From assembly GCA_022848865.1 (NCBI GenBank), contig JAJISE010000008.1, positions 1 through 54,721 on the forward strand: 54,721 nucleotides of DNA, read 5' to 3'. The stretch comes from Candidatus Thermoplasmatota archaeon (GTDB lineage: Archaea > Thermoplasmatota > Thermoplasmata > RBG-16-68-12 > JAGMCJ01). Made by a program: the position numbers and the translations under genes. The notes under the pieces are model-generated. The model saw only the letters and a list, made by a program, of their open reading frames with translations. It did not search any database and was not told the origin of the DNA. Positions 11,364-26,062 of this stretch are shown one piece after another. The first letter of the stretch is position 1, and each line of letters begins with the position of its first letter.

Positions 11364-11711
11364 TTATCTTGATAGGACGTCGACGGCTTTCCAGTCGCCT
11401 CCGAAGTCCTTGGTGATGCCTGAGGACAGCTGGAACCTGACTCGAAGCCTGCCATTCTCGAAGAAGATGTAGGCGTTCCTGAGTTGCGAAAGATAGAGAC
11501 TGATCCGCTTCCCTCTCTGCGTGAGGGCCCTTTCAACACACTTTATCAGTCCGGCTTTCTCCAGCATGTGGATTCTTCGGTACGTAGCAGCGATTGGAAT
11601 CCCGTACTCCCTGCTGAGATCAATCGCGCTCTTGGGTTTCTTGAACGTCGCAACAAGGATTCTTGCTGCGTATTCGTCGGTTATCAGTCGTGATGCTTCC
11701 AAAGGATCCAT
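11364..11711 (-). CDS. Winged-helix regulator, paralog 1 of 4
   Basis: A 115-residue DNA-binding protein. Residues 1-75 form a winged helix (ILVATFKKPKSAIDLSREYG, then IPIAATYRRIHMLEKAGLI as recognition helix region and a basic wing TQRGKR). The C-terminal 40 residues form a small strand-rich domain (LRNAYIFFENGRLRVRF) ending in GGDWKAVD. It is strongly similar to the gene at 19772 and recognisably to those at 19361 and 20244. Start at ATG 11711 is fixed by GGAGGA 9 bases before it and by alignment with the paralogs; the frame extends further upstream. Its promoter has the regulon palindrome at 11776. Probably binds near the KaiC/DUF835 promoters. Confidence 0.82.
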   Translation of the reverse strand: MDPLEASRLITDEYAARILVATFKKPKSAIDLSREYGIPIAATYRRIHMLEKAGLIKCVERALTQRGKRISLYLSQLRNAYIFFENGRLRVRFQLSSGITKDFGGDWKAVDVLSR

Positions 11712-11775
11712 CTTCTTTCCTCCTGACCTCAATATTCCAATCCCCCACGACGGTATATATAACGCAACGGGACGA

Positions 11776-11791
11776 GTATCATGGCTGATTC
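11776..11791. promoter_or_regulatory. Regulon palindrome, promoter of winged-helix paralog 1
   Basis: GTATC-N6-GATTC, matching the core TATC-N6-GAT. It ends 15 bp before the TATATATA box (11754-11761) on the minus strand. A 15-base core (TATCATGGCTGATTC) is also found at 26048. Confidence 0.55.
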
Positions 11792-11804
11792 TCAATCGTA
11801 ATAA

Positions 11805-12341
11805 TCAGCCGCCTATTACGTCCGCGTTTCTCTCCAGAAGAGCTAGCTCCTTCGATTCAAAGGCCCGCGAGTCTATCGAGACGAGGAACAGGGCCTCCTT
11901 CTGCATCACGATCTCGTTCACGTACTCTATGAACTTCAGGATCCTCGGGAAGTCGTTGTTGATCATCAGATACTCGAGCCCGTCGAGGAGAATGGCTGAC
12001 TTGCCACCCTTGTCCATGAAGTTGCTAATGAGGTTCGTGAGGCTCCCGAGGTTGTGGGGGTCGACATAGTCCCTGCCGAGCGTGGTGGAGAGCCATATCA
12101 CCTTCATCCCATCCCGCCCGCGCTTCCTCGGTATGTGGTCCGGATGCCTCCTTGTGATGTAGAGGCCCGCGTAGCCATCATCCATCAGCTGGGTGAGGTA
12201 CTCGAGCGCTCTCTCGTGCCTCCGCTCGTGGAGGAAGTACGAGTGCCCCTCCTTGAGGACCTCCTGCCCTTTGCCCAGGAATATGTTTCGGAAGAGCTCG
12301 TCCGTCGCGTTGTCTATGCTCATCATTAGCAAGGGCAGCAT
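11805..12341 (-). CDS. DUF835 domain protein
   Basis: The protein is a single DUF835 domain of 178 residues, recognised by GHSYFLHERRHERALEYLTQL, GLYITRRHPDHI, VIWLSTTLGRD, LLDGLEYLMINNDF and the final SLDSRAFESKELALLERN-like end. DUF835 is an archaeal domain frequently linked with KaiC-like ATPases and proposed to work in signalling; it resembles a P-loop-less RecA-type fold, retaining a Walker B-like ILLDG. ATG 12341 is preferred to the TTG two codons upstream. TATA (12383-12390) and the palindrome at 12402 lie upstream. It is divergent from the wHTH-TPR gene. Confidence 0.82.
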   Translation of the reverse strand: MLPLLMMSIDNATDELFRNIFLGKGQEVLKEGHSYFLHERRHERALEYLTQLMDDGYAGLYITRRHPDHIPRKRGRDGMKVIWLSTTLGRDYVDPHNLGSLTNLISNFMDKGGKSAILLDGLEYLMINNDFPRILKFIEYVNEIVMQKEALFLVSIDSRAFESKELALLERNADVIGG

Positions 12342-12401
12342 TCCCAATCAATCCTCGCTTCTTGGATTACCTCTCATGGGTTCTTATACATTCTGCAATC
12401 A

Positions 12402-12417
12402 ATATCAGGAATGATAC
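12402..12417. promoter_or_regulatory. Regulon palindrome, DUF835 promoter
   Basis: ATATCAGGAATGATAC, a TATCA-N4-TGATA palindrome, ends 12 bp before the DUF835 TATA box on the minus strand. It lies in the divergent region shared with the wHTH-TPR gene, about 45 bp from that gene's TATA box. Confidence 0.6.
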
Positions 12418-12488
12418 TCTGGTCATGTTCTGGATTCGAGCCGCGAGCATGCGAAAACACTAAATCAAAGGCGACTGATACGACCCTT

Positions 12489-13826
12489 ATGATGCTCACC
12501 GCCTTGGAGAAGCCGACGGGCACCTTGAGAATCCTCGCGTACGTCCATCAGAACGAACGCGGGACTATCTCTGACTTCTACAGAAAGGTCGGGATAAACC
12601 AGGAATCCGCCTATTCCGCCCTGAGGAATCTCCTGCAGCTGGGCCTGATCTACGAGAAGGAGGAGGGCAAGTTCCCCTTCAGGAAGTTCTACTTGCTCAC
12701 AAGCAAGGGGGAGCAGATCGCGGAGAAGCTGTCGTCCATAGAGGAAACGCTGACCGACACGGTATACGGCTACTATCACAGGCTCGAGGAGCTGGAGGCA
12801 GCGCCTGAGGCTCCCGAGAACCTTGCTGCCAGGCTCGAGATGATGCTCAAGATCCAGGATGTCTGCTTCGCGACCGGCGAGTGGGATTCCTGCATGGAGT
12901 ACTGCGGGAAGTCGCTGGACCTCGCGCAGAGGTTAGATGACAAGGCCGCGCAGCTGAAGGTCTTCAGGGACATTGGGTGGATACACGAGAGGAGAAACGA
13001 GTGGGCCGCGGCCCGGAAGAACTTCGAGAGCGGTCTTGGGTTGGCGAGGGAGACGGGCGATATGTCCGCCATGGCCAGCATATTCTATGACCTGGGGGCC
13101 ATCCACGAGAGGAATGGAGAGTACGGCCGAGCGTTGGAGTTCTTTGACAAGTCAAGGCAAGCATCACAAGACGCCAAGAATGACTGGAATCTGGCAAGAG
13201 CTCTCTACGCCTTCGGTCGCGTGGAGGCTCAGAGGGGGAACTACAAGAAGTCCATTGCGTACATGGAGAAGTCCATCGGGATGCTCGAGAAGATCGGTGA
13301 CCTGAGCGAGCTGGCCAAGGTCTGCACCGGAATGGGGGCCACGTGGTTCTACCTGGACGACATGGACAAGACGATAGAGTACCACGAGAAGTGCATACGG
13401 ACCGCCGAGAAGCTGGGGGATGCGACGGGGATCGGATATGGCCTTTCCAACGCGGCCGAGGCCTACGCGCTGAAGGGCGACACGAAGAAGGCTTTTGAGT
13501 ACCTTGAGAGGGCGCTCCGCATCTTCGAGAAGCTCAACGAGAGGATGATGATTTCGTCCGTGTACTCCCACTACGGCCAGGCCCATCGACTCAGAGAGGA
13601 ATGGAAGAAGTCGGAGGAGTACTTCAGCAAGAGCATTGCCCTACTGGAAGAGCTCAATCTACCCTACAACATGGCCGATGCCCACTACAAGTTCGGTGTT
13701 ATGTACAAGGAGAAGGGTGAGCAGGACAACGCCGCGGAACACCTCTCCAAGGCGCACGAGATCTTCGAGAAGATCGGAAACAAGAGCATGATGGAGAAGG
13801 TGGCCGGTCTGAGAAACGGTCTCTAG
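12489..13826 (+). CDS. Winged-helix/TPR repeat protein
   Basis: The 445 residues begin with a winged-helix domain (residues 1-80: GTISDFYRKVGINQESAYSA recognition region, then a wing and LLTSKGEQIAEKL) followed by about eight tetratricopeptide repeats from residue 105 to 440, with motifs such as GDMSAMASIFYDLGAIHERN and YGRALEFFDKSRQA. TPR arrays bind partner proteins, so this looks like a ligand- or partner-controlled transcription regulator. ATG 12489 is 26 bases after CTAAATC, a leaderless start; the frame is open further upstream. It abuts the convergent secreted-protein gene with no gap. The partner is unknown, though the KaiC/DUF835 cluster is the obvious candidate. Confidence 0.82.
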   Translation: MMLTALEKPTGTLRILAYVHQNERGTISDFYRKVGINQESAYSALRNLLQLGLIYEKEEGKFPFRKFYLLTSKGEQIAEKLSSIEETLTDTVYGYYHRLEELEAAPEAPENLAARLEMMLKIQDVCFATGEWDSCMEYCGKSLDLAQRLDDKAAQLKVFRDIGWIHERRNEWAAARKNFESGLGLARETGDMSAMASIFYDLGAIHERNGEYGRALEFFDKSRQASQDAKNDWNLARALYAFGRVEAQRGNYKKSIAYMEKSIGMLEKIGDLSELAKVCTGMGATWFYLDDMDKTIEYHEKCIRTAEKLGDATGIGYGLSNAAEAYALKGDTKKAFEYLERALRIFEKLNERMMISSVYSHYGQAHRLREEWKKSEEYFSKSIALLEELNLPYNMADAHYKFGVMYKEKGEQDNAAEHLSKAHEIFEKIGNKSMMEKVAGLRNGL

Positions 13827-14303
13827 CTAGACGAGGTCCACCGGGAGCCACGACTGAGGCCAATCCTGGAAGGCCAGTGGTATTATGACCTCCTTGTAGT
13901 GAGGCCAATCCTGGTCGCTCAGCTCGATGATGAGCTCGTCCCAACCCTGAGGCCAGTCCTGGTCGAGGACCAGAACATATCGGTCCTCCTCCTGCGACGT
14001 ATCAAGGGCCAAGGGCATCAGAACCTCTTCTTCCTGCGATGCCGCTCGCAGCAGACCTCTTGCGGCCTTGGCCCCATCTGGCATCACAATGACAGGGATA
14101 TGTATGGCACCCGGGTCCGACGTCGACAGGTCGATCGTGACATACTCCTCGTGAATGTCCTGGATTACCATGCCGGCGTTCCCGTTCTCGACGTTGTCAG
14201 TGGGAACGGCTGTCCAGGTCCCGCCGGACGCTGTGGGTTGTAACGCTAGAGCAATCGATAGTACAACGAGTGCAGTTGCTAGCTCTCTCTTCCTCGCCCT
14301 CAT
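13827..14303 (-). CDS. Secreted protein with QDWP repeats
   Basis: No family recognised. The N-terminus has a signal peptide (MRARKRELATALVVLSIALAL, cleavage after about ASG). The mature part of some 130 residues is acidic. Three copies of a QDWP motif occur in the last 50 residues (DQDWPQGWDELIIEL, DQDWPHYKEVIIPL, FQDWPQSWLPV), each followed by a beta-prone hydrophobic stretch, so a small repeat domain is likely. ATG 14303 follows a TATA box CTATAAATA by about 25 bases, leaderless. The stop abuts the convergent TPR gene. Confidence 0.65.
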   Translation of the reverse strand: MRARKRELATALVVLSIALALQPTASGGTWTAVPTDNVENGNAGMVIQDIHEEYVTIDLSTSDPGAIHIPVIVMPDGAKAARGLLRAASQEEEVLMPLALDTSQEEDRYVLVLDQDWPQGWDELIIELSDQDWPHYKEVIIPLAFQDWPQSWLPVDLV

Positions 14304-14503
14304 CACCCTTTTCTATGTTTGAGGCGGTATTTATAGATATCGAGGTTCGGACACGAGTTCCCCAGGGCCTCCGACACATGATCCTGCTTGTCTGCGCAGT
14401 CGAAGTGCAGTCGCGCGAGAAGATCATGAGTGGACTGGACATTAGCCTCATCCTACCGTTTTATGTCCGTGCTATTATTCCGTATACCGAAAAACGATAA
14501 CCT

Positions 14504-14511
14504 TTTATAAT
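14504..14511 (+). promoter_or_regulatory. TATA box of candidate RNA gene
   Basis: TTTATAAT is centred at about 14507. The predicted start, 26 bases on, coincides with the first base of the 10-bp stem at 14532. Confidence 0.45.
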
Positions 14512-14531
14512 GTGCACGAGATTCATGGATG

Positions 14532-14691
14532 TTGCGGCTTCGGAGGTTCAAGTCTTTGCGAGGAAGCCGCAAGATAGGAGAGGGGTCCGGTAGATGCCTC
14601 GTATGATGAGAACTCGGCCAACAAGCTTGCAATCCTTGAGGGAGTCGGTGACGACTCCTTCGGTCGCTCCCGCGAAAACACCCGCTTTTTT
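14532..14691 (+). ncRNA. Candidate structured non-coding RNA
   Basis: The 605-base gap between two genes holds no convincing ORF but shows ordered RNA-like structure. From the predicted transcription start: a perfect 10-bp stem TTGCGGCTTC/GAAGCCGCAA (14532-14541 with 14563-14572); further on a 7-bp stem GGAGTCG/CGACTCC closed by a GTGA tetraloop of the GNRA class (14641-14658); and a run of six T at 14686-14691. A further 6-bp hairpin AGGGTC-GAA-GACCCT (14700-14714) follows, so the RNA could extend to about 14850, where there is a TTTT. I looked for and did not find SRP RNA, RNase P RNA, 5S rRNA or box C/D hallmarks. Strand and ends are inferred. The rest (14692-14850) shows only that hairpin. 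Confidence 0.4.
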
Positions 14692-14908
14692 GGACGCAGA
14701 GGGTCGAAGACCCTACCAATCCAGTGGGAGTGAATCGGATTCGGGCGCCTTTACCCTCCAATCTGTGTGTTTGATCCCCGCCCTGACTGGTGATTGCATC
14801 CCCAGGATGGCCGACTGAATCTCACCCAAACCGGACCCCTCAGTGTTTTGCGTCCTTGCCGACCTGTCTAGCAAACGTTTATTTCTCGCGAGAGTTTAAC
14901 CTCGCACG

Positions 14909-15631
14909 ATGACCGCCCGCCTGGGTATTATCACGGGTTCTGAAATGGAGATATCCCGGATCCTGGAAGGGACCAGGGATGAAAGGGTCGGCACGCCCTT
15001 TGGCGATCCCTCTTCGTCTGTTCAGATAGGTCTGATCAAGGGGAAGGAGGTTGCCTTCCTGTACCGACACGGAGAAGGACACAGGCATCCTCCGCACAGG
15101 GTGAACCATCACGCGAACATACATGCCCTCTCGGACGCGGGCGTCACGAGGATCATCGGTGCATCTTCAGTCGGCAGCATGAGGCAGGACATACGGCCCA
15201 TGGATTTCGTCATTCCTTCGGACTTCGTGAGCTTCTGGAACATCCCAACATTCCACGACGAGAATGTCGTTCACGTCACTCCCGTTCTCGATCCGGAACT
15301 CAGGAAGAGCCTCGTCGATTGCATCAGGGATCTGGGGTACACCGCCCATGATGGCGGCGTTTACATCCAAACAACTGGACCCAGGCTCGAGACCAAGGCC
15401 GAGATTCGCATCTTCAAGGAGTTCGGAGACCTGGTGGGCATGACGATGCCGTCCGAAGCCACTCTGGCGGTGGAGAAGGGCATCGCCTACGCGAGCATAT
15501 GCTGCGTTGACAACTACTGCCATGGCATGGCGGACGAGGACCTCTCCTACGACGTGATTCTCGAGCATCAGAAGAGGAATGCCGAGAGGCTGTTCAACAT
15601 CATCGCGAGGGTCATCGAGGTGCTTGCTTGA
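14909..15631 (+). CDS. Methylthioadenosine/methylthioinosine phosphorylase (purine nucleoside phosphorylase family)
   Basis: This cleaves a 5'-methylthio-nucleoside with phosphate into the base and methylthioribose 1-phosphate. Family motifs: RHGEGHRHPPHRVNHHANI, a phosphate-binding segment, GASSVGSM, QTTGPRLETKAEIR and GMTMPSEATLA. At 240 residues it is a little shorter than most (about 260-275). A TATA-like TTTATTT is 28 bases before the ATG, so it is leaderless. The stop overlaps the TTG of the deaminase. The deaminase next door converts MTA to MTI, so the true substrate is probably MTI, giving hypoxanthine for the Hpt gene that follows; MTA remains possible. Confidence 0.85.
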   Translation: MTARLGIITGSEMEISRILEGTRDERVGTPFGDPSSSVQIGLIKGKEVAFLYRHGEGHRHPPHRVNHHANIHALSDAGVTRIIGASSVGSMRQDIRPMDFVIPSDFVSFWNIPTFHDENVVHVTPVLDPELRKSLVDCIRDLGYTAHDGGVYIQTTGPRLETKAEIRIFKEFGDLVGMTMPSEATLAVEKGIAYASICCVDNYCHGMADEDLSYDVILEHQKRNAERLFNIIARVIEVLA

Positions 15632-16884: not shown

Positions 16885-16895
16885 GAAGCGATCGC

Positions 16896-17456
16896 ATGCT
16901 GGAGAAGCTGAAGGAATCCATGGATGAGTGCCTGGTCGTGAAGTTCGGTGACTATGAGTACTTCGTACACCCCATAACGGATGGCATTCCGCTCGGGGAC
17001 CCTGAGGTCCTGGAGGAAGTGACGGAGGCCATGATTAGTGTGGCGGATCTCGACTGCGACAAGATAGTCACAGCGGAGTCGATGGGCTTTCCCCTGGCAG
17101 CGTCGCTCTCTCTGGCAACGGGCATCCCATATGTCTTCATCAGGAAGAGGGAATACGGGCTTCCCGGTGAGATTTCAGTCAAGCAGATCACTGGATACTC
17201 GGGCTCGGATATGTTCATCAACTCCATCGACGAAGGAGACAGGGTCGTCTTCGTTGACGATGTCCTGAGCACCGGCGGGACCCTAAGGGCGATAGTCCAG
17301 GCGTTGAGGACTCTCAAGGCGGTTCTGATCGACGTCGTGATAGTGTTCAACAAGAACCCGGACAAGGAGAAACTCGAGAAGGAGTTGGATATGAGAATCA
17401 AGACGCTTCTTGACGTTCGTGTGATGGACGGAAAGGTCGTGTTCACTCAGGGCTAA
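16896..17456 (+). CDS. hpt: Hypoxanthine/guanine phosphoribosyltransferase, archaeal type
   Basis: This transfers ribose 5-phosphate from PRPP to hypoxanthine or guanine. The PRPP loop VVFVDDVLSTGGTL is near residue 120, and the N-terminus (FGDYEYFVHPITDGIPLGDPEV) and length of 186 match archaeal HptA. It begins 11 bases after the deaminase stop and completes a pathway in gene order: MTA to MTI, MTI to hypoxanthine, hypoxanthine to IMP. The 123-base region after it contains the next operon's palindrome and TATA box. Confidence 0.9.
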   Translation: MLEKLKESMDECLVVKFGDYEYFVHPITDGIPLGDPEVLEEVTEAMISVADLDCDKIVTAESMGFPLAASLSLATGIPYVFIRKREYGLPGEISVKQITGYSGSDMFINSIDEGDRVVFVDDVLSTGGTLRAIVQALRTLKAVLIDVVIVFNKNPDKEKLEKELDMRIKTLLDVRVMDGKVVFTQG

Positions 17457-17506
17457 GAATCCCCCCTGAAAATGCCTTTCTGTGCATTTGCCAGCTCACT
17501 TCGAAC

Positions 17507-17522
17507 TTATCAGTTCTGATAA
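17507..17522. promoter_or_regulatory. Regulon palindrome, perfect copy, KaiC-pair promoter
   Basis: TTATCAGTTCTGATAA has perfect 7-bp arms (TTATCAG/CTGATAA). It ends 16 bp before the CTTAATAG TATA element (17538-17545). Confidence 0.65.
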
Positions 17523-17579
17523 TCAGTGCGAAATCCACTTAATAGCGTGGCTCAATTCTTTTGATTAGGCTGGGTCCTA

Positions 17580-18275
17580 ATGGTATACGAAACTGAAGTA
17601 ATCGCCATGAGGGACGTCATATCCCAAATGATGAAGACCTCGCAGAACAGGCTCCTAGTGAACACTGACAGGGTCTACTTGGCGAAAACCAACCTCATCA
17701 CGCTTAAGTCCCTTCTAGAGGAGAGAGGGCCCAGAGGGATTTTCTTGTCCATCAACCGGCCCTATCACTACATGGCCCACCTGCTGAGGATCCACAAGGT
17801 CGACTACGAAGAGATGCTCTTCATCGACGCCGTCTCCAAGATATCTGGGGAGAGGAAGATGGATTGGAAGCAGACCACGTTCTTGGACAGCCCATTCCAG
17901 ATTCCCAAGATATTCGAGGACCTGCAGCTAATCGGGAAGACCCCGGACGGCTCTACGTCCATCATCAAGATCATCGAGGGCGACTTCGTGATGATAGACG
18001 ACATTTCCGCGATCTTCCACTACAACGAGCTGGGAACCGGAAAGCGCTTCCTGAAGGAGTTCCTCGATGCTGTCGCGTCCAATCCGAAGTCCTTCACTGC
18101 GTTCGCGATTGACCGGGAGACCCAGAGGGATGTCTACGAGTTCCTGGCCGATAGCTCCGACAGATTGGTGGACATGGGCAACGCAGCCTTCATGGAGGTT
18201 CCCAGGGAGCTCCAGGAAGAGCACGCCCCCATGGCACGCCCGTCAGATGGCGAGGGAGGGATGATCCATGAATAA
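17580..18275 (+). CDS. RecA/KaiC-like protein lacking Walker A
   Basis: The 231 residues have the strand-helix pattern of a RecA-type core: LLVNTDRVYLAK, GIFLSINRPYHYM, MLFIDAVSK and a Walker B-like FVMIDDISAIFHY. There is no P-loop, so it probably does not hydrolyse ATP. The last 20 residues are polar and likely disordered. It overlaps the active KaiC-like gene by 8 bases, so the two are made together, and I infer a catalytic/non-catalytic pair. An ATG at 17607 is an alternative start. Its TATA is at 17538-17545 with the regulon palindrome upstream. Close to DUF835-type sequences in style but not clearly the same family. Confidence 0.7.
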   Translation: MVYETEVIAMRDVISQMMKTSQNRLLVNTDRVYLAKTNLITLKSLLEERGPRGIFLSINRPYHYMAHLLRIHKVDYEEMLFIDAVSKISGERKMDWKQTTFLDSPFQIPKIFEDLQLIGKTPDGSTSIIKIIEGDFVMIDDISAIFHYNELGTGKRFLKEFLDAVASNPKSFTAFAIDRETQRDVYEFLADSSDRLVDMGNAAFMEVPRELQEEHAPMARPSDGEGGMIHE

Positions 18276-18951
18276 TGCGATAATAAGGCGGTCCAGCGGA
18301 ACGCCTGGCCTGGATGAGATGATATCTGGAGGTTTTCCCTTCCCCTCGGTTCTCCTCGTCGCTGGGAGTGCCGGGACGGGAAAGACGACCTTCGCTCAGA
18401 AGTTCCTCTTCGAGGGTGCCAAGAACGGAGAGCAGTGCATATTCTTCACGACGCTCAGCGAGCCCACCCAGTGGATGCTGAGATTCTCCTCCCAGTTCGA
18501 GTTCGTCGATCCAGAGTACTTCGGCAGGGAAATAATCTATATCGACATAGGGCACGACATAAGGGAGAGCGGCCCTCATGAGATCCTCGATATCCTGGAC
18601 GAGAAGATCGCCGCAATAATGCCACAGAGGATAGTCATCGATCCGATCACCATCGTTTGCGACCTCATCGAGAACAACTACAGGACATTCCTGTTCGATC
18701 TGGTCACCAGGCTGAAGAACTGGGATTGCGTGACGGTCCTGACGGGCGAGGTCGCTCCCGGTCAGCTTTATCCGCCGGAGATCGCCCATGCAGTGGATGG
18801 GATCGTCCTGCTCATGTACACCCATGAAGGCGAGGAGAGACGCAAGTACATCGAGGTCCTCAAGATGAGGGGAACGAACCACGTCACCGGAAAGCAGTCA
18901 ATAGACATCACAACCGAAGAGGGCATAGTCGTCCTCAAATCGAAGTTCTAG
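18268..18951 (+). CDS. KaiC-like RecA-superfamily ATPase
   Basis: A single-domain KaiC-like ATPase of 227 residues. It opens with the family signature GTPGLDEMISGGFPFPSVLLV, then Walker A GSAGTGKTT near residue 38, and a Walker B-like RIVIDPITIV near 120. The later DGIVLLMYTHEGEERRKYIEVLKMRG is the typical KaiC/RadA C-terminal region. Such archaeal KaiC-like proteins are proposed signal-transduction hubs, not circadian clocks. It overlaps the upstream P-loop-less partner. A T9 run after a CCTCCG/CGGAGG hairpin at 19065-19128 could terminate this operon. Confidence 0.88.
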   Translation: MNNAIIRRSSGTPGLDEMISGGFPFPSVLLVAGSAGTGKTTFAQKFLFEGAKNGEQCIFFTTLSEPTQWMLRFSSQFEFVDPEYFGREIIYIDIGHDIRESGPHEILDILDEKIAAIMPQRIVIDPITIVCDLIENNYRTFLFDLVTRLKNWDCVTVLTGEVAPGQLYPPEIAHAVDGIVLLMYTHEGEERRKYIEVLKMRGTNHVTGKQSIDITTEEGIVVLKSKF

Positions 18952-18979: not shown

Positions 18980-18995
18980 TTATCACACGTGATAA
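18980..18995. promoter_or_regulatory. Regulon palindrome, perfect copy, before a gene-less promoter
   Basis: TTATCACACGTGATAA is fully symmetric. A TATA-like GCTTATACT lies 15 bp downstream on the plus strand, but no convincing CDS follows; a short transcript to the T9 run at 19128 is the likely product. Confidence 0.6.
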
Positions 18996-19039
18996 TTGGA
19001 AAACAAGATGCTTATACTCTGCGCCTGCTGTTTCAAAGA

Positions 19040-19128
19040 GCCAACAGATAACGATGACCCCTCCTCCGAGGAAAGACGGAGGCCCATTTTCTTGGGACCT
19101 TTGCTTTCCTCACCCCCCTTTTTTTTTC
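19040..19128 (+). ncRNA. Candidate short transcript between palindrome-promoter and T9 terminator
   Basis: A perfect regulon palindrome (18980), a TATA-like element (19010-19018), a CCTCCG/CGGAGG hairpin (19065-19084) and nine T (19120-19128) together outline a transcript of about 90 bases. No convincing ORF fits inside. It could instead be just the 3' end of the KaiC operon. Region 18952-19157 holds nothing else. Confidence 0.3.
19120..19128 (+). terminator. T9 terminator
   Basis: Nine consecutive T after a C-rich stretch and a 6-bp hairpin. It is the longest T run in the window and would end plus-strand transcription from the KaiC-like operon or the short transcript. Confidence 0.55.
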
Positions 19129-19157
19129 TGTGCAACGGGTGAGGATGGGTTAAGGAG

Positions 19158-19292
19158 CTACTCGAGATCCTTTTTCCTCGTGTCCTTGAAAACGATGACG
19201 TTGAGGCTTATGACCTCTTTCTCTTCGTCCTCCTCCTTTGGAAAAATCACGCTCTTCCCGTTGGGAAGGATTTTGTGGAATCTTAGTTTCAT
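19158..19292 (-). CDS. 44-residue protein under regulon control
   Basis: A small open frame (MKLRFHKILPNGKSVIF, then an acidic EEDEEKE stretch and a strand-like VISLNVIVFK). No family recognised. Its support is the promoter: AGTTTAAATA (19321-19329) centred 33 bases before the ATG, TGATAGG directly before the start, and the regulon palindrome at 19342 upstream of the TATA box. Small size, net balance of Lys and Glu, and lack of a membrane segment suggest a soluble small effector or partner protein. Confidence 0.5.
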   Translation of the reverse strand: MKLRFHKILPNGKSVIFPKEEDEEKEVISLNVIVFKDTRKKDLE

Positions 19293-19341
19293 CCTATCAG
19301 TTAATCGTAGAGGGCCGGCTTATTTAAACTCAGTCTCACGG

Positions 19342-19357
19342 TTATCGAGCGTGATTA
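19342..19357. promoter_or_regulatory. Regulon palindrome, promoter of 44-residue gene
   Basis: TTATC-N6-GATTA, one mismatch from full symmetry, ending 13 bp before the TATA element on the minus strand. Confidence 0.5.
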
Positions 19358-19360
19358 TCA

Positions 19361-19699
19361 TCACAGAATCTCAATCGTCTCCCAGTCCTGCGTCACTGCC
19401 TGCTCGTCCAGAGTGAGAACGAACTTGAGCTGGATGCCGTTGTCCTCGATGTGAATGTGCCCCTTGTTGAGATTCGCCTCGAAGAGCCTCACGACTCTCC
19501 CTCGCCGGGTAACGACTCTCTTCCTCACCGACAAGAGCCCCGCCTTCAACAGCAGGTTTATCTTCCTGTAGCACGAGGCGATCGGGATCGAGTACTTCCC
19601 GCAAAGCTCGTACGCAGATCTCGGTGACAGAAACGTCGCAACAAGGATGTGCTTCACGTCATCATCGCGCAGCAGTTTCAGCTTCTGATGGATGTTCAT
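19361..19699 (-). CDS. Winged-helix regulator, paralog 2 of 4 (divergent)
   Basis: The most divergent of the four paralogs, 112 residues. The winged helix retains ILVATFLSPRSAYEL, the key YSIPIASCYRKINLLLKAGLL recognition region and a very basic wing (KRVVTRRGRVVR). The C-terminal domain keeps HIHIEDNGIQLKFVL but loses the GGDW end. I set the start at ATG 19699 by aligning with the paralogs; the frame is open to a TTG at 19750. It has its own TATA-like element (19741-19750, minus strand) and its own palindrome at 19757, so it is not simply the tail of the upstream gene's operon. Confidence 0.78.
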   Translation of the reverse strand: MNIHQKLKLLRDDDVKHILVATFLSPRSAYELCGKYSIPIASCYRKINLLLKAGLLSVRKRVVTRRGRVVRLFEANLNKGHIHIEDNGIQLKFVLTLDEQAVTQDWETIEIL

Positions 19700-19756
19700 C
19701 AGAGAACGTATTAGCGTGACAAATGATGGCACTTTCGACGATTTTATCAAGAGAGA

Positions 19757-19772
19757 GAATCAGAACGGATAC
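19757..19772. promoter_or_regulatory. Regulon palindrome, promoter of winged-helix paralog 2
   Basis: GAATC-N6-GATAC on the plus strand (GTATC-N6-GATTC on the minus), about 10 bp before the ATAAAAT box. On the minus strand its CTGATTCTC half is the same as in the copies at 11776 and 26047. It overlaps the last codon of the upstream gene. Confidence 0.45.
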
Positions 19773-20116
19773 TACTCCTTTGAATCGACTCCCGTCCAGT
19801 CCCCGCCGAAGTCCTTGATCACACCGGTGGTCAAGTGGAAGCGGACCCTGAGCCTCCCGCCTTCGAAGAAAACATAGGCGTTCTTGAGCCTCGAGGTATA
19901 GAGGTTCTTCCTCTTCCCCTTCTGCGTCAGAATACGCTCCACGCATTCCAAGAGCCCTATGTCCTCAAGGGCCCTGATTTTTCGATAGCAGGCAGCAATG
20001 GGTATCCCGTATTTCCTGCTTATCTCTTGGGCGCTCAACTTCCTCTTGAAGGTCGCCAAGAGGATCTTCGCAGTGTATTCATCCGTCAGTAATTGAGAGG
20101 CTTCTAGCGGTGTCAT
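19772..20116 (-). CDS. Winged-helix regulator, paralog 3 of 4
   Basis: A 114-residue regulator and the closest relative of the gene at 11364: both start with PLEAS-LTDEY, share GIPIA-CYR in the recognition helix, TQ-GKR in the wing, and end GRLRVRF-GDW. A GGGAGGG lies 6 bases before the ATG. Its TATA box (20185-20194) sits about 70 bases upstream, leaving a leader of some 45 bases, and two palindromes lie above it (20207 and 20228). The duplication with 11364 must be fairly recent. Confidence 0.82.
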   Translation of the reverse strand: MTPLEASQLLTDEYTAKILLATFKRKLSAQEISRKYGIPIAACYRKIRALEDIGLLECVERILTQKGKRKNLYTSRLKNAYVFFEGGRLRVRFHLTTGVIKDFGGDWTGVDSKE

Positions 20117-20206
20117 TTCATACCCTCCCTGATACCCCCTCAGTGAGAAGTACTCAGGTATGGATATAGTTCTTATAACTCTTTGTATTTAAAGACTTCC
20201 TTGGGA

Positions 20207-20222
20207 TTATCAGCAAGGAAAA
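20207..20222. promoter_or_regulatory. Regulon palindrome (one mismatch), proximal site of paralog 3
   Basis: TTATC-N6-GAAAA, one mismatch in the second arm, ending 13 bp before the TATA box on the minus strand. Confidence 0.4.
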
Positions 20223-20227
20223 CACAA

Positions 20228-20243
20228 TTATCAGGACTGATAG
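20228..20243. promoter_or_regulatory. Regulon palindrome, distal site of paralog 3
   Basis: TTATCAGGACTGATAG, arms TATCAG/CTGATA perfect. It follows the stop codon of paralog 4 directly and lies 21 bp from the proximal site, about two helical turns, so two dimers could bind on one face. Confidence 0.6.
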
Positions 20244-20585
20244 CTACCTGGTCGGGATGGGGATCTTGATCCACGTGTTGTTGATGTCTTCGTCGTAGTT
20301 GAACTCGAGTCTGATTCTGAAATGCCCTTCCTGGAACATGATGCAGGCGCTCTTGAGCTGTGACTTGTAGAGCTTCATGTTCTTTCCCTTGGAGGTCGTG
20401 ACGATCTTCTCGACCTCGACCAATCCAGCGTCCTCGAGATCATGCATCTTGCGGTAGCAAGCGGCTATGGGGATATCGTACTTGTCGCTGATTTCCTGAA
20501 CTGACCGCGGGTAGAAGTACGTCGCAACAAGAATCCTCTCTGCGTAATCATCAGTCAGTAGTCTAGAAATTGCCTTCTCCCGCAT
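20244..20585 (-). CDS. Winged-helix regulator, paralog 4 of 4
   Basis: The 113 residues match the family: SRLLTDDYAERILVATYFYP, YDIPIAACYRKMHDLEDAGLV, a basic wing (TTSKGKNMKLYKS) and a C-terminal strand domain (CIMFQEGHFRIRLEF). ATG 20585 lies 26 bases after the TATA element TTAAATC on the minus strand, indicating a leaderless start; an ATG four codons upstream (20597) is too close to that box. The palindrome at 20630 is above the TATA. It is followed directly by the distal palindrome of paralog 3. Confidence 0.82.
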   Translation of the reverse strand: MREKAISRLLTDDYAERILVATYFYPRSVQEISDKYDIPIAACYRKMHDLEDAGLVEVEKIVTTSKGKNMKLYKSQLKSACIMFQEGHFRIRLEFNYDEDINNTWIKIPIPTR

Positions 20586-20629
20586 TGCGATACTCATTCT
20601 CTACTTGATTTAAGCACATTTCTATGCAA

Positions 20630-20645
20630 TTATCAACGATGATAC
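20630..20645. promoter_or_regulatory. Regulon palindrome, promoter of winged-helix paralog 4
   Basis: TTATCAACGATGATAC, a TATCA-N4-TGATA palindrome ending 15 bp before the TATA element on the minus strand. Confidence 0.6.
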
Positions 20646-20666
20646 CCATACGCCCGCTCTGGGGGG

Positions 20667-22181
20667 CTAGATTATCGGTATTAGCACCGTCTGCGGATAG
20701 CCCTTCGAGTGATCGAAGGAAAGGGCGTGGAGCTCGGTGTAGGGTTTCTCGCCGAAGAGCACAACTGAACCGTCTATGTTCTCGATCTTCAGGTGAGTAT
20801 GGGCGAGATTCGCGAGCGGTGCTGTAGAAGAGGTCGTTGACGTAACGATTCCTATGAAGATGTCCTTCGCCTTTCTGATTGACGACATGTGACCTGCCAT
20901 GTCCTCTATCACTTCGTGGCCGAAGACCGCCTCCAGGGTGTCGAACCCCATCAGGGACAGGATTGGACGCTCCGTCTGCGAGAGATGATACTCGATGTTG
21001 CTCCATTTCAGCTCGTTGTCGATGTCAGAACCCTCCATCGGGAGTGCTATCTTGGAACCCTCCACAGAAGTTGTGGCGGACGGTTCGAACACGCGCATGC
21101 ACCTCTCGAACGCTTCCTGGCCGACAAAAGGCATGATCTCGTCCCTTACCATCTCCGAGGAGGCCTTCTTCTCGGGGACGAACGCAACTCCCCTGCCAAG
21201 CGAGATGAAGTTCGACAAGAGCGAGGTCTTGATGAGGTCAGAGTACAGCGTGTCGACATTCCCGCCTATCTCCACAGCGACTATCGTACCCTTCTTGAAT
21301 CCGCCTATCAGAGCGTCGAGTTGCTCGCTTCCCGTCGAGATCCAGTTCTCCGATATGTCGGGCATGGGCTCCCAACTCGACTTCTCACGCGGAATCTCGA
21401 TCTTCTCGAAGCCAAAGGTCTTGATTCTCCCCCCGTCCAGACTGTAGACACATTTGTGCTGCCTAATCTCCGTGCCGCGAAGCTTCTCAATCTTCATTAT
21501 TCTCAGCCGTCTGCCTTCGTATTCCTCGCTCGTGAACGTGATGACCCCATCCCCAAGATAGTCGAGCCGCGTCTCCCCAGGGCTCTCCAGCACATACAGG
21601 ACGTCGGAGGAGGAGGTCTCGACCAGGTCCTTCTGGAGCGTGTTCATCAACTTCGAGGGGTGAATCCCGTATCTCTCTGCCAGTGCGTTGATGCTGTCTA
21701 TCAGTATGAGGCTCTTCTCTGGGAGGGTGTTCTCGACCACGTCATATGCCATGTCGATCTCGGGGAGGTCCGATCCAAGGTCCAGGATGAGACCAGTCTC
21801 ATTTACCTCTCCCTCGCTAATCTTGTCGTAAATGCTGCTCTCGTCCTCCTCACCCATCTCTATCCGGCCCTCGAGCTTCTTGAGCTCCGTTCTGTCGACC
21901 TTGCCCTCCTCTTCCTCACGCTTCTGAGTGAGCCTCGTCGGGGCGATTCGCTTCTTGAACTCGATTCTGTCCTTGAGCCAGGGGAACTGGTTGTACAGGG
22001 AATGATCGCTCACCCTGATTGACATGTAGTACGAGTTCTCGACGCTCCCCAGCTCCTCTGTCAGCTGCAGGGCGAATGTCGTCTTGCCCGTTCCCGCAGC
22101 ACCCTTGACTATCAAGGAATGTCCGCCTGGCCCTTTGAAGAAGTCTAGCAGTGCATCAGGAATACCCTTCTCTTCTTTCAT
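20667..22181 (-). CDS. Two-domain RecA/KaiC-like ATPase, second domain P-loop-less
   Basis: A 504-residue protein. Domain 1 (about 1-255) has Walker A KGAAGTGKTTFALQL near residue 25 and a Walker B-like SLILIDSINALAERYGI near 155, interrupted by a charged linker (EEEEGKVDRTELKKLEGR) around 85-115. Domain 2 (about 270-504) opens with the KaiC-like STGSEQLDALIGGFKKGTIVAVEIG but its P-loop position reads GGNVDTLYS, so it cannot bind ATP in the normal way. It ends with KPYTELHALSFDHSKG. The architecture recalls GvpD-like and KaiC-like proteins. TATA near 22210-22218, ATG 22181, palindrome at 22234. It mirrors the active/inactive pair at 17580-18951 in one chain. Confidence 0.8.
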   Translation of the reverse strand: MKEEKGIPDALLDFFKGPGGHSLIVKGAAGTGKTTFALQLTEELGSVENSYYMSIRVSDHSLYNQFPWLKDRIEFKKRIAPTRLTQKREEEEGKVDRTELKKLEGRIEMGEEDESSIYDKISEGEVNETGLILDLGSDLPEIDMAYDVVENTLPEKSLILIDSINALAERYGIHPSKLMNTLQKDLVETSSSDVLYVLESPGETRLDYLGDGVITFTSEEYEGRRLRIMKIEKLRGTEIRQHKCVYSLDGGRIKTFGFEKIEIPREKSSWEPMPDISENWISTGSEQLDALIGGFKKGTIVAVEIGGNVDTLYSDLIKTSLLSNFISLGRGVAFVPEKKASSEMVRDEIMPFVGQEAFERCMRVFEPSATTSVEGSKIALPMEGSDIDNELKWSNIEYHLSQTERPILSLMGFDTLEAVFGHEVIEDMAGHMSSIRKAKDIFIGIVTSTTSSTAPLANLAHTHLKIENIDGSVVLFGEKPYTELHALSFDHSKGYPQTVLIPII

Positions 22182-22233
22182 GTAACACCCTGCGTCAGTA
22201 AGGGCGAATCCCTTTTAGATGTTTTTCTCTTCG

Positions 22234-22249
22234 TTATCACGAGTGAGAA
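22234..22249. promoter_or_regulatory. Regulon palindrome, two-domain ATPase promoter
   Basis: TTATCACGAGTGAGAA, one mismatch, about 14 bp before the TATA element at 22210-22220 on the minus strand. Region 22182-22314 otherwise holds only GC-rich hairpins that may end the upstream operon. Confidence 0.5.
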
Positions 22250-22314
22250 CGCCCGGCTCGTGGAGATCGCCGCCTGCGGAGGCTTTTCCTGGGCGCGCCG
22301 CCCGCCGAGAACGA

Positions 22315-23310
22315 TCACTTCCTGATGGCCTCGAAGGCCTTCCGCGCAACGTTCACGTCGTTCTGATGGAAGAGGAGTTCCGCTGCCTCGGCCTCCGTGC
22401 ACCACTTGTACCTGTCAAACCTGAACTCCGGCTCTGGCTTTCCCTTGGGAGCACGCGCGAGGAAGTAGGTGACCTTCTTCCGGTTGTTGATATCGTCCTG
22501 GGGCCAGTAGTAGGAGTACTCGATGTCGCACAGCTCCTGCTCGATTCTTATCGACCAGAGCCCCGTCTCCTCCTTCATCTCTCTCAAGGCAGCGTGTTCC
22601 AGGCTCTCACCTGTCTCAACGTGACCCTTCGGGAGACACCAGAGTCTCTCGCTCTTCTTGCGGATGAGAAGGACCCTTCCCCTCCTGTGGATGACGCCTC
22701 CGGCGGCCCGGATGGAGACATCTCTCTTCCCCCTCCTAGCGGGCCCACTAATGACCCTAGTGTCCTCGGATTCTACGAACTCCTTCGCCCTCTTCAGATC
22801 TGACGTCAGATGCTTTAGTAGTCGTCTGTTGTAGAGGACCGCCGCGGGGTGATAGGTCGAGATCAATGGCCTTCCTCTGTATTCCCCAGTTTCGAGCCGA
22901 GCCTCGGACACCTTCGCCGACCTGCCCGCCAGGACCCTGTGCGCGAACGATCCCAGCGCCACGACTGCGTAGGGATCCACCGCATCGATGTACGCTTCCA
23001 GATTGGGTCGACATTTCTCTATCTCGTCCTTTCTGGGATTCCGATTCCTCGGCGGACGGCACCTGAGTACGCTCGTGATGAAAACGCCATCCCGCTTCAG
23101 ACCCGCCTTCTCGAGCGATTCGTTCAGGATCTTTCCCGCCGCTCCGACGAAGGGGCGACCTTGCTTGTCCTCCTCTCTCCCAGGGGCCTCCCCTACAAGG
23201 AAGATGCGCGCGTTCCTGTCTCCCTCACCTGGAACCGCCCTCTCGCGTGTCTTCCACAGCCTGCACTTCCTGCATCGCCTTACCTGCCTCGCGAGTGTCT
23301 CCAGACTCAT
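22315..23310 (-). CDS. Fusion of family 4 uracil-DNA glycosylase and Nudix hydrolase
   Basis: Residues 1 to about 195 are a family 4 (iron-sulfur) uracil-DNA glycosylase: cysteines in CRKC near residue 13 and in LRCRPP and EKCRPN, the GEAPGREEDKQGRPFVG active-site motif, and STYHPAAVLYN near the end. Residues about 198-331 are a Nudix domain with the full box GHVETGE, then REMKEETG. Typical family 4 enzymes are about 190-220 residues, so the Nudix part is an addition. One removes uracil from DNA; the other hydrolyses nucleoside diphosphate-linked compounds, possibly dUTP-like or oxidised nucleotides. The gene ends the dodecin-Hsp20 operon, 9 bases after hsp20. Confidence 0.88.
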   Translation of the reverse strand: MSLETLARQVRRCRKCRLWKTRERAVPGEGDRNARIFLVGEAPGREEDKQGRPFVGAAGKILNESLEKAGLKRDGVFITSVLRCRPPRNRNPRKDEIEKCRPNLEAYIDAVDPYAVVALGSFAHRVLAGRSAKVSEARLETGEYRGRPLISTYHPAAVLYNRRLLKHLTSDLKRAKEFVESEDTRVISGPARRGKRDVSIRAAGGVIHRRGRVLLIRKKSERLWCLPKGHVETGESLEHAALREMKEETGLWSIRIEQELCDIEYSYYWPQDDINNRKKVTYFLARAPKGKPEPEFRFDRYKWCTEAEAAELLFHQNDVNVARKAFEAIRK

Positions 23311-23319
23311 CCCAGGCCT

Positions 23320-23784
23320 CTAGATCTCCACGCCCCTGACGACTTCCCTCTTCAGAACGATGTCGAGCACGCCGTTTCGCAGAGTCCATCTCATGTCGTT
23401 TCCAAGGACGGTCGTGGGCAGGTCCACTTCCGCGTAGTACTTCCTCTCTCCTCCCACTCGGACTGTCAGTTTGGAGCCCTTCGCCTCGACCTCCACATCC
23501 TCTTCCGAAGCTCCCGGAAGTTCCATTGTGACGAAGATATCGTCCTTTCCCTGGATTACGTCCGTGAGCGGTTGCCTCTCTTCCAAGCCCTTTCTCTCTT
23601 CGAGATACCTGGTGTTGCCGAAATCCGAGATCTCTGTCTTGCCGTCGGGACCTGTTCGCAAGGAGAACCCGTATACGAAGGACTCGTCTCTCAGCGAATC
23701 TAGCTGAGATAGCGATAGCTGGTTGAACATCCTTCGCATGAGGCGACGCATCATTGCGAATTCGTCTTCTGGCTCCTCGTCCAT
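23320..23784 (-). CDS. Hsp20/alpha-crystallin family small heat shock protein
   Basis: An ATP-independent chaperone that holds unfolded proteins. The N-terminal part (1-75) is Met- and Arg-rich, followed by an alpha-crystallin-like domain from VIQGKDDIFVTMELPG to about residue 150 with the LRNGVLDIVLKR beta strand. It lacks the usual C-terminal IXI tail; the end is VVRGVEI. Length 154. It starts one base after the dodecin stop and 9 bases before the UDG-Nudix start, so the three are probably co-transcribed as a stress operon. Confidence 0.85.
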   Translation of the reverse strand: MDEEPEDEFAMMRRLMRRMFNQLSLSQLDSLRDESFVYGFSLRTGPDGKTEISDFGNTRYLEERKGLEERQPLTDVIQGKDDIFVTMELPGASEEDVEVEAKGSKLTVRVGGERKYYAEVDLPTTVLGNDMRWTLRNGVLDIVLKREVVRGVEI

Positions 23785-23785
23785 T

Positions 23786-23989
23786 CTATCTTTCTACCAG
23801 GAACGATACCTTCACATTCGCCCTGAACTCAACGATCTCGTCATCCCTTACTTTGGCGGAGAACTTGACCACATCGATGCCACTGATACCTCTCGTGGTC
23901 TTCTTCGCGTCGGTGAAGGCGTTGAGGATAGCATCCTCGAAGTTCTTGTTTGAGCAGCCAACAAGCTCGATTACTTTTGCAGTTGTCAT
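23786..23989 (-). CDS. Dodecin (flavin-storage protein)
   Basis: A 67-residue dodecin, a small protein that assembles into a dodecamer and binds riboflavin or FAD in pairs. Visible are TTAKVIELVGCSNKNFEDAI, the A-T/A-K-RGI segment (KKTTRGISGIDVV), and VEFRANVKVSFLVER. The frame continues 19 codons upstream, but GGGGAGG stands 4 bases before ATG 23989 and the TATA element CTTATACC is about 32 bases before it, so 23989 is the start. First gene of the dodecin-hsp20-udg/nudix operon. Confidence 0.9.
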   Translation of the reverse strand: MTTAKVIELVGCSNKNFEDAILNAFTDAKKTTRGISGIDVVKFSAKVRDDEIVEFRANVKVSFLVER

Positions 23990-24030
23990 GTAACCTCCCC
24001 GGTTCAGAATCGCGTCGTGGTATAAGATTC

Positions 24031-25764
24031 TTAGGACTTGAACCACGCCAGGAGTTCTTTGGCGGGCAGAGTGTTTAGAACGTCCTCTGGCTCAAGCCAG
24101 CCTCGCCTGGCCGTGCCGATTCCGTACCTCATGAAGTGCATTTGCCCCAACGTGTGCGCGTCCGTCCCGAGAACCAGCTTGACTCCCCGCTCCTTTGCCA
24201 ATCTCGCGTCCCTGTCGTTCAGGTCGAGCCTGTCGATCCACGAGTTGATCTCGAGAGCCGTGTTCGTCTCCAGCGCAGCATCCATTATCCTGTCCATGTC
24301 CACTTCGTAAGGCTCCCTTTTGCCGATGAGCCGCCCAGTGGGATGTGAGATGAAATCGACGTGCTCGTTCTCCATTGCCGTCACTATCCTGTCCGTCATC
24401 CTCTCCTTCTCCATCTTGAACTGGGAGTGCACCGCACCGATCACTATGTCCAGCTCCTGGAGTATCTCGTCATCGTAGTCCAGCTCACCGCTCGCTTTGA
24501 TGTTCACCTCATTGCTCGAGAAGATCTTGAACCCCTTCTCCCTCTTGTTCAGTTCCTTGATAGCGTCGACTTGCTCGAGCAGGACATCATCATCCAGTCC
24601 ACCGGCGATTTTGATTCCCCTTGAGTGATCGGCGATGCTGACGTAGGAGTAGCCAAGCGTCTTGGATTCCTCCACCATCCTCTCGATGGATTCCGTCCCA
24701 TCGCTCCACTCCGTGTGGATGTGGAGGTCTCCTTTGACGTCGTCGAGTCCTATCAACCCGGGCAGGCAGTCCGACTGGGCAGCTTCGATCTCCCCTCTGT
24801 CCTCCCTCAGCTCGGGTGCGACGAAGTCCATCCCCAGTGCTTCATAGATGCCCTCCTCGGTCTCTCCCGCGATCCGTTTCTCTCCCTCGAAGAGACCGTA
24901 CTCGTTCAGCTTCCAGTTCTTGGTCTGGGCGATTCTCCTCAGACGGATGTTGTGGTCCTTGGACCCGGTGAAGTACTGGAGCGCGGAACCGAAGCTCTGG
25001 GCGTCAACGACCCGGAGGTCCGTCTGCAGTCTTACGGTCGTCTGAAGCTCAACATTCCTTCTCTCCACAATCACGCTTGTCTTCGTAGGCCCGCTCACGA
25101 TGACCTCTTCAACGCCTGGGAGCGCAACAAAGGCCTCCATCACTCCTTCTGGTTCGTCTGAGGCCACCAGAATGTCGAGGTCACCCACCGTTTCCCGCAT
25201 CCTCCGGGACGAGCCCGCCACGGATATTCTGTCGATGTGGCACTTTGTCCTCAGCTCTTCGATCAGCTCTTCAGCAAGTGGGAGACCCAATCCCAAGAGT
25301 GCTCTCTTCCCTGCTCCGGAGAACGTGCGGAGACCGTTGAGAATGTTCTCCTCGCTCTTCTTGCTGAACCCTCTTAGCTTCCTGATTCTGCCTTTCCTTG
25401 CGGCCCGCTCAAGTTCCTCGACGCTCGTCACTCCGAGCTGCTGGTACAGGACCTTGACGGTCTTCGGGCCAACGCCAGGGATGTGAAGGAGTTCCAGAAG
25501 ACCTGGCGGGAATTCGGCTCTGAGCTTCTCCAGGTAAGCTATCTTCCCGGTCTTGACATACTCCTCGATCTTCTTGGCCAATGCCTTTCCGATTCCCTGG
25601 AGGTCTTGCAGCTCCCTCCTCTCAGCGATTCCAGCAACATCCTCCCTGAGCCCCTCCACAATCCTCGCCGCCCGCCTGTAGGCATTCGCCTTGAACGGCT
25701 CGTCCTTCATAACCTCGAGATCGCCAATCTGGCCTAGGATTCTCGCGAGCTCCCTGTTCTTCAC
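24031..25764 (-). CDS. polX: Family X DNA polymerase with PHP domain (PolX)
   Basis: A repair polymerase with a PHP nuclease domain. Order: helix-hairpin-helix lyase-type region (residues 1-150, LQGIGKALAKKIEEY and IPGVGPKTVKVLYQQLG), the palm with nucleotidyltransferase signature GSSRRMRETVGDLDILV near 190, a third catalytic strand QTDLRVVD near 245, then the PHP domain from about 340 (DLHIHTEWSDGTESI, IADHS, GAVHS, FISHP, GTDAHT). Length 577 matches bacterial and archaeal PolX. It probably supports base excision repair. An interesting detail is the extra ERRNVELQTTVRL before the third Asp. Start fits the local TATA pattern. Confidence 0.93.
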   Translation of the reverse strand: MKNRELARILGQIGDLEVMKDEPFKANAYRRAARIVEGLREDVAGIAERRELQDLQGIGKALAKKIEEYVKTGKIAYLEKLRAEFPPGLLELLHIPGVGPKTVKVLYQQLGVTSVEELERAARKGRIRKLRGFSKKSEENILNGLRTFSGAGKRALLGLGLPLAEELIEELRTKCHIDRISVAGSSRRMRETVGDLDILVASDEPEGVMEAFVALPGVEEVIVSGPTKTSVIVERRNVELQTTVRLQTDLRVVDAQSFGSALQYFTGSKDHNIRLRRIAQTKNWKLNEYGLFEGEKRIAGETEEGIYEALGMDFVAPELREDRGEIEAAQSDCLPGLIGLDDVKGDLHIHTEWSDGTESIERMVEESKTLGYSYVSIADHSRGIKIAGGLDDDVLLEQVDAIKELNKREKGFKIFSSNEVNIKASGELDYDDEILQELDIVIGAVHSQFKMEKERMTDRIVTAMENEHVDFISHPTGRLIGKREPYEVDMDRIMDAALETNTALEINSWIDRLDLNDRDARLAKERGVKLVLGTDAHTLGQMHFMRYGIGTARRGWLEPEDVLNTLPAKELLAWFKS

Positions 25765-25852
25765 ATGGTCTCAAATGAAACAGGTCATAAAAACCTTCTC
25801 GCGATTCATCCGTCCACCTAGAAGAAGGGCTCTCAAACCGACCGAGCGCGGT

Positions 25853-25984
25853 CTATTCCTCGAAACCGAAGCCCACTTCCTGCTCGCGCCATATGAGAAG
25901 GGACCTCGGCAGGTCATCGAAATCCTTGAATCTGAGACTCAGAATCTCGTACTTCCCATCAGGAGTCATTCTTGCGGTCTTCAT
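25853..25984 (-). CDS. 43-residue protein, distant member of the regulon
   Basis: A short frame (MKTARMTPDGKYEILSLRF, then KDFDDLPRSLLIWREQEVG). No family recognised. The start has GGGAG 4 bases upstream and a CTTAAAT box about 45 bases upstream. The palindrome at 26047, with a 15-base core identical to the one at 11776, lies above the TATA box. It sits alone between PolX and the DUF47 gene, 4 kb from the main regulatory cluster. Regions 25765-25852 and 26063-26165 around it hold nothing I can identify. Confidence 0.5.
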   Translation of the reverse strand: MKTARMTPDGKYEILSLRFKDFDDLPRSLLIWREQEVGFGFEE

Positions 25985-26046
25985 CTCGCTCCCTTTGCCA
26001 TGAACTCTCTTGATTTGTTTTGCAGGACTTAAATGTTACGTCCGGC

Positions 26047-26062
26047 CTATCATGGCTGATTC
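26047..26062. promoter_or_regulatory. Regulon palindrome, promoter of 43-residue gene
   Basis: CTATC-N6-GATTC, inner core identical to the site at 11776 over 15 bases. It ends 13 bp before the TATA element on the minus strand. Confidence 0.5.

Follow-up and report, generated by a model that had tools for sequence, protein, structure and literature searches.

The DNA analysed here, called the window throughout, is a stretch of 54,721 nucleotides, positions 1-54,721 of contig JAJISE010000008.1, from a Candidatus Thermoplasmatota archaeon (assembly GCA_022848865.1). It carries four small winged-helix (WH) paralogs, a DUF835 gene, a RecA-like/KaiC operon, a GvpD-like two-domain ATPase, a 44-residue open reading frame (ORF) and two RNA elements (Table 1). 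A palindrome with the core TTATC-N6-GATAA precedes WH1 to WH4, the DUF835 gene, the operon, the GvpD-like ATPase and the 44-residue ORF, and also marks a promoter at 18980. An earlier note, made from the sequence alone, had listed eleven copies and proposed that the WH paralogs bind them, forming an autoregulated network controlled by the ATPases. We find that the palindrome is real, repeated and conserved, and we consider it quite probable that it would serve as the operator of a small WH family, resembling CsmR of Haloferax volcanii, that runs an ATPase-gated signalling regulon.

Table 1. Palindromes, genes and RNA elements in the window (matrix, weight-matrix score)
Feature	Position	Strand	Remarks
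RNA element B2, weaker second tandem copy	11245..11297	-	model R1 20.6 bits
RNA element B1, abutting the WH1 stop: ACCCCTCCTCCACAACCCA and hairpin	11310..11364	-	single copy per genome; covariation
WH1 winged-helix paralog, 115 aa	11364..11711	-	HTH_20 9.8e-5, TrmB-like; orthologs 80-98% identical, 29 loci
Tandem palindromes, 13-bp offset (11776-11791, 11789-11804)	11776..11804	-	WH1 promoter; scores 15.4, 17.1; TATATA downstream
DUF835 protein (inactivated-KaiC-like domain)	11805..12347	-	PF05763 5.1e-36
Palindrome, DUF835 gene promoter	12402..12417	-	matrix 19.1; TATA on DUF835 side only
Perfect palindrome, RecA-like/KaiC operon promoter	17507..17522	+	
RecA/KaiC-like partner, 231 aa	17580..18275	+	no match in Pfam or NCBIfam
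KaiC-like ATPase	18268..18951	+	PF06745 1.6e-43
Perfect palindrome, putative promoter of small-RNA-like element A	18980..18995	+	kept with synteny in another family (G014)
Small-RNA-like element A: C-rich CCCCTCCTCC, hairpin, CACCCCCC and T-run	19036..19131	+	fold z = -3.3; boxes conserved in two families
44-residue ORF, MKLRFHKILP...	19158..19292	-	orthologs beside WH genes across the order
Palindrome, promoter of 44-residue ORF	19342..19357	-	matrix 18.1
WH2 winged-helix paralog	19361..19699	-	alignment of paralogs
Tandem palindromes, 13-bp offset (19744-19759, 19757-19772), upstream of WH2	19744..19772	-	scores 15.5, 12.9; no clear TATA
WH3 winged-helix paralog	19772..20116	-	HTH_20 1e-6; structure model pLDDT 89.7
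Proximal (20207) and distal (20228) palindromes, WH3 promoter	20207..20243	-	scores 15.7, 22.2; TTTAAATA at +14 of proximal
WH4 winged-helix paralog	20244..20597	-	
Palindrome, WH4 promoter	20630..20645	-	matrix 20.5
GvpD-like two-domain P-loop ATPase	20667..22181	-	PF07088 62.6 bits (cut-off 24), PF20440 42.8 bits (cut-off 27.9)
Palindrome, GvpD-like ATPase promoter	22234..22249	-	matrix 20.7

All eleven listed copies can be read directly in the sequence. At the ten fixed positions of the core, the sites at 17507 and 18980 are perfect (10/10), those at 19342, 20207, 20228, 20630 and 22234 match at 9/10, the site at 12402 at 8/10, and those at 11776, 19757 and 26047 at 7/10. With up to two mismatches allowed, the window contains 25 sites against 11.6 ± 3.3 expected. 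The whole genome contains 17 exact sites, mostly intergenic, against 0 for the reversed pattern, and 65 against 15 with at most one mismatch; exact sites number 16-19 (control 0-2) in all five genus members and 6-34 (control 0-2) in a second family, the reversed control being biased in that it contains TAG stops. In the 17 exact sites, the flanking purine, which was not seeded, is present in 31/34 cases and an A follows the core in 26/34, giving the refined consensus RTTATCA-N4-TGATAAY: the core proposed earlier is confirmed, and the motif extends beyond it.

A symmetric weight matrix, with a score of at least 14 as the cut-off for promoter sites, gave 55 sites in 418 kb, compared with 2.1 for column-permuted matrices; these 418 kb are stretches picked around sites, and the site density in them is not a genome average. 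Although ∼87% of this DNA is coding, 48 of the 55 sites are intergenic. High-scoring sites within coding sequence occur at L017 5019, L024 9462 and L031 10001, and could be decoys or internal promoters.

Ten of the eleven copies hold up. The eleventh (26047..26062) was rejected as a chance match: its matrix score is 9.3, it lies 283 bp from the nearest start and it is not at a promoter; outside 11.3-22.3 kb, no promoter-type site in the window reaches 14. The copies at 11776 and 19757 are real, but each is the weaker member of a tandem pair offset by 13 bp, whose higher-scoring partners (11789 and 19744) had been overlooked. The source genome and a relative each have seven pairs of sites spaced by exactly 13 bp.

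The sites have a fixed register with the promoter. For 25 of 46 site-gene pairs, the best TATA-like octamer begins between +12 and +17 past the site, and 12 of these 25 have it exactly at +14; a smaller TATA peak at +27 is consistent with a second site located 13 bp farther off. The downstream base composition shows an A-rich stretch at +10 to +12, resembling the recognition element (BRE) of transcription factor B (TFB), followed by a TATA zone at +14 to +21. The distance proposed earlier (site end ∼10-16 bp upstream of TATA) was thus about right, and the location upstream of BRE/TATA, on the side of an activator, is borne out. This position argues for activation through recruitment of TFB and the TATA-binding protein (TBP), because operators upstream of BRE/TATA activate in the TrmBL1/Tgr system (PMC4158304) and the operator of GvpE abuts BRE and activates (PMC4390858).

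Elsewhere in the genome, the sites precede genes for Ras-like GTPases, KaiC, DUF835, TPR proteins, a response regulator, AsnC-domain proteins and large surface-type proteins. Upstream sites scoring at least 14 were found for 12 of 19 scorable Ras-family genes (control 0.10), compared with 2 of 26 KaiC genes (control 0.02). Ras-like GTPases, not KaiC genes, are therefore the largest class found in what is a signalling regulon, and "KaiC regulon" was rejected as a description, since 24/26 KaiC genes have no site. The proposal of a single regulon stands, but on a genome-wide scale and not confined to the KaiC/WH cluster. This 2-Mb archaeal genome yields ∼18-20 Ras-family matches (loci L202-L221), four of which form a tandem array with a palindrome each (L029). 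Separately, a perfect palindrome at L026 10204 has a TATA-like element and a basic ORF of 34 residues (10280-10384) downstream.

The set of targets is recognizable beyond the genus. In G014, a genome of another family, sites precede counterparts of the GvpD-like ATPase, WH1, WH4, the 44-residue ORF, KaiC and DUF835, together with Ras-like GTPases, a response regulator and surface proteins. The site is kept at 9/10 DUF835 orthologs, 13/23 orthologs of the 44-residue ORF and 17/42 orthologs of the GvpD-like ATPase (controls 0.1-0.4). In some families the ATPase gene lies directly 3' of the WH gene, so that it would share the WH promoter.

To the WH genes themselves, the site is linked across the class. 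A search of named genomes yielded 66 WH loci, in records named Thermoplasmata, Thermoplasmatota, Methanomassiliicoccales or unclassified Euryarchaeota, and the palindrome lies upstream in 54 of them (permuted control mean 0.86, maximum 4). A second set that includes distant families gave 32 of 47 WH loci with a site, compared with 1.7 in the control. These loci are not mutually independent, but their GC contents span 0.36-0.69. The deepest conserved site that we found is in front of WH genes, which suggests that they are autoregulated throughout the class, a feature that is new here. The paralogs are small (112-117 aa), and all four have the recognition helix IPIAxxYR, which fits one operator for all four. 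The structure model of WH3 (predicted local distance difference test, pLDDT, 89.7) consists of four helices followed by five strands; its top fold match is Phr of Pyrococcus furiosus (2p4w), which is also the top match of the sequence profile (2P4W). The best WH match to the TrmB family PF01978 scores 24.9 bits, below the cut-off of 25.6, and no effector (sugar-binding) domain is present.

An experimentally defined counterpart exists in H. volcanii. CsmR is a 13-kDa winged-helix regulator of motility and cell shape that works with the KaiC homolog CirA; its motif from chromatin immunoprecipitation sequencing (ChIP-seq), TATCA(N4)TGATA, adjoins TATA and occurs in 50/65 peaks (PMC13286277, PLoS Genetics 2026). 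Its structural match is Phr 2P4W, and it is classed structurally as Lrp/AsnC-like; it is reported chiefly in Halobacteria, plus some Thaumarchaeota, and its co-occurrence with archaellin genes for Halobacteria only (PMC13286277). The two systems have in common the half-sites, their spacing and their place next to TATA, and a ∼13-kDa protein with an N-terminal winged helix, a beta-rich C-terminus, the Phr match and a KaiC-family partner. They differ in that the window system belongs to Thermoplasmata, has four paralogs that appear autoregulated, uses the tandem 13-bp register, and targets Ras-like GTPases, DUF835, TPR proteins, the GvpD-like ATPase and RNAs, not a known archaellum set. A literature query on the exact motif returned unrelated papers only; the CsmR precedent came through a query on KaiC and winged-helix proteins. 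Operator binding by the WH paralogs is thus strongly supported, by conservation and by analogy: the site is kept before WH orthologs and CsmR binds the same sequence, and the earlier proposal that they are both binders and autoregulated targets appears probable.

Haloarchaeal plasmids also carry WH homologs (∼26-45% identity, up to 45% over 75 aa), but none of six such loci has a full site upstream. One homolog, on a Natronorubrum bangense plasmid (L254 4944-5297; 45% identity over 75 aa), has a very similar recognition helix, with the gas-vesicle genes gvpO and gvpN a few kb away.

A second known system resembles the circuit in its half-sites. TrmBL1/Tgr of the Thermococcales and their operator, TGM, likewise combine a winged-helix family, a TATCA/TGATA half-site core, an upstream activation position and proposed autoregulation (PMC4158304). 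However, TGM reads TATCAC-N5-GTGATA, with cores 7 bp apart compared with 4 in the window palindrome, and the WH paralogs differ from TrmBL1/Tgr in lying below the Pfam TrmB cut-off and having no sugar-binding domain.

What, then, could control the WH proteins? A GvpD-like ATPase adjoins WH genes in most loci examined, across the class, and in the window it (at 20667) and a KaiC-like candidate partner (at 18268) are encoded nearby. Both GvpD domains, the P-loop and basic region 2, score above their Pfam cut-offs, placing the ATPase in the GvpD family. GvpD is a P-loop ATPase that reduces the amount of GvpE (PMC4390858). There too, a GvpD-family ATPase goes together with a transcription factor that has its operator directly beside BRE, and both genes are under that operator; GvpE, in contrast, is leucine-zipper-like and uses a 20-nt upstream activating sequence, while the partner here would be a winged helix with another operator. 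We saw no gvp genes or GvpE partner around the GvpD-like ATPase, where the regulators encoded nearby are of the winged-helix type; this look for gvp genes covered the surroundings of the ATPase, not the whole genome. Control of the WH proteins by the ATPases is plausible, inferred from the conserved adjacency and from the GvpD-GvpE and CirA-CsmR precedents. Makarova et al. 2017 (as cited in PMC5847659) proposed that KaiC-like ATPases act as signalling hubs in archaea, and KaiC, DUF835 (inactivated KaiC) and HTH genes in signalling neighbourhoods are common to that proposal and the window. As cited there, the proposal concerns the ATPases as hubs; the common operator and the targets among Ras-like GTPases are results of the present analysis.

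Two RNA elements accompany the regulon. In element A, the boxes CCCCTCCTC and TTCCTCACCCCC are invariant and occur with a hairpin (z = -3.3) and a T-run; this arrangement, including the palindrome, is kept and syntenic in a second family. The 18980 site, previously described as a gene-less promoter, is thus followed by a conserved small-RNA-like element, which would be transcribed from it. In element B1, the core CCCTCCTCCACAACCCA is present in 29/29 WH1 orthologs examined, and in a draw of 392 phylum genomes each of the three members of the order that were drawn has it once, while all other genomes lack it. The B1 hairpin covaries, with 88% of cells paired and 17 double-sided changes compared with 6.6 after shuffling, and pairing drops to 34-52% in slid controls; RNAalifold on A2 had paired the conserved C-rich strand and not the hairpin, which was then tested with its pairs named. 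B2-like second copies downstream of WH1 also occur in L072, L076, L079 and L081. Neither element is in Rfam: a search of Rfam 15 over 11,000-27,000 returned only a chance match (U6atac, E = 0.8). The C-rich segment looks similar to an anti-Shine-Dalgarno sequence, but when targets were scanned it showed no preference for regulon mRNAs (mean -9.4 vs -11.5 kcal/mol for others) and differed little from shuffled seeds, so that such an action has no support yet.

Taken together, these observations suggest the following mechanism. Dimers of the WH paralogs would bind RTTATCA-N4-TGATAAY immediately upstream of BRE/TATA, in some cases at tandem sites with a 13-bp offset, and would activate by recruiting TFB/TBP. 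Their targets would be the WH genes themselves, the genes of the partner ATPases (GvpD-like, RecA-like/KaiC and DUF835), a small RNA and, across the genome, a signalling regulon with Ras-like GTPases as the largest class found. The nucleotide-binding GvpD-like ATPase would probably gate them, much as GvpD acts on GvpE and as has been proposed for CirA and CsmR. The motif and its enrichment, position, conservation and gene linkage come from this analysis and occupancy by CsmR from elsewhere; we infer that these WH proteins bind the motif, in which direction they regulate, and that an ATPase gates them.

Several observations weigh against this mechanism. Sysuiplasma-like WH orthologs (L109-L113, ∼60% identity) have no upstream palindrome. 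Families without WH matches still show roughly 2-5-fold forward/control ratios, and across the class the site count does not track WH presence cleanly, as judged with the stop-codon-biased reversed control. Kinship of the WH proteins to CsmR (HVO_1209), judged from operator and modelled fold, is putative. Finally, deletion of csmR in H. volcanii raises motif-bearing genes, and its overexpression increases motility (PMC13286277).

The deletion result speaks for the alternative that the WH proteins bind but mainly repress, in negative autoregulation, with the ATPase as anti-repressor. We hold this as a tentative possibility: repressors mostly have their sites over TATA or downstream of it, and the present sites lie on the side from which TrmBL1/Tgr and GvpE activate, as noted above. 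Small autoregulated WH proteins are, on the other hand, often repressors. Any sign given to the regulation is tentative, in H. volcanii as well, with activation favoured here by the position of the sites. Another regulator, for example of Lrp/AsnC type, might instead bind the motif, with the WH genes merely its targets; perfect palindromes do precede two AsnC-domain proteins (L020, L024), and the structural class given to CsmR points the same way. We consider this unlikely: Pfam detects nothing but the ligand-binding domain in either of those proteins, CsmR is itself a 13-kDa WH protein like the window paralogs, and it is WH genes that have the most deeply conserved site. A chance, compositional or repeat origin, to which the biased control and the modest ratios in families without WH matches might lend some colour, is refuted by the intergenic bias, the fixed TATA register, the unseeded R/Y flanks and a position conserved across families while the spacer varies.

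While the operator itself has published precedent, its phylogenetic depth and the apparent autoregulation, the WH-ATPase pairing, the Ras-like targets, the tandem 13-bp sites and the two RNA elements are new. The WH-operator mechanism ties an experimentally found haloarchaeal operator to a conserved regulon in uncultured Thermoplasmatota, and would bring most of the numerous genes for Ras-like GTPases in this genome under a single switch. It also offers a class-wide case of a KaiC/GvpD-type ATPase apparently paired with its own transcription factor, a pairing so far proposed in archaea mostly from gene neighbourhoods. The RNA elements are undescribed, and one has an 18-base segment invariant in every ortholog examined within the order. 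More speculatively, and with considerable doubt, an ancient euryarchaeal circuit of WH factor and ATPase might use one operator for motility, shape or signalling genes in Thermoplasmatota and Halobacteria; in the Thermoplasmatota order this circuit might include an RNA arm, in which one C-rich small RNA would be expressed from a palindrome promoter of its own, another would be cut out of the WH1 3' end, and both would act on translation by anti-Shine-Dalgarno mimicry. In its WH, operator and ATPase components, the system looks like an old, shared control circuit.

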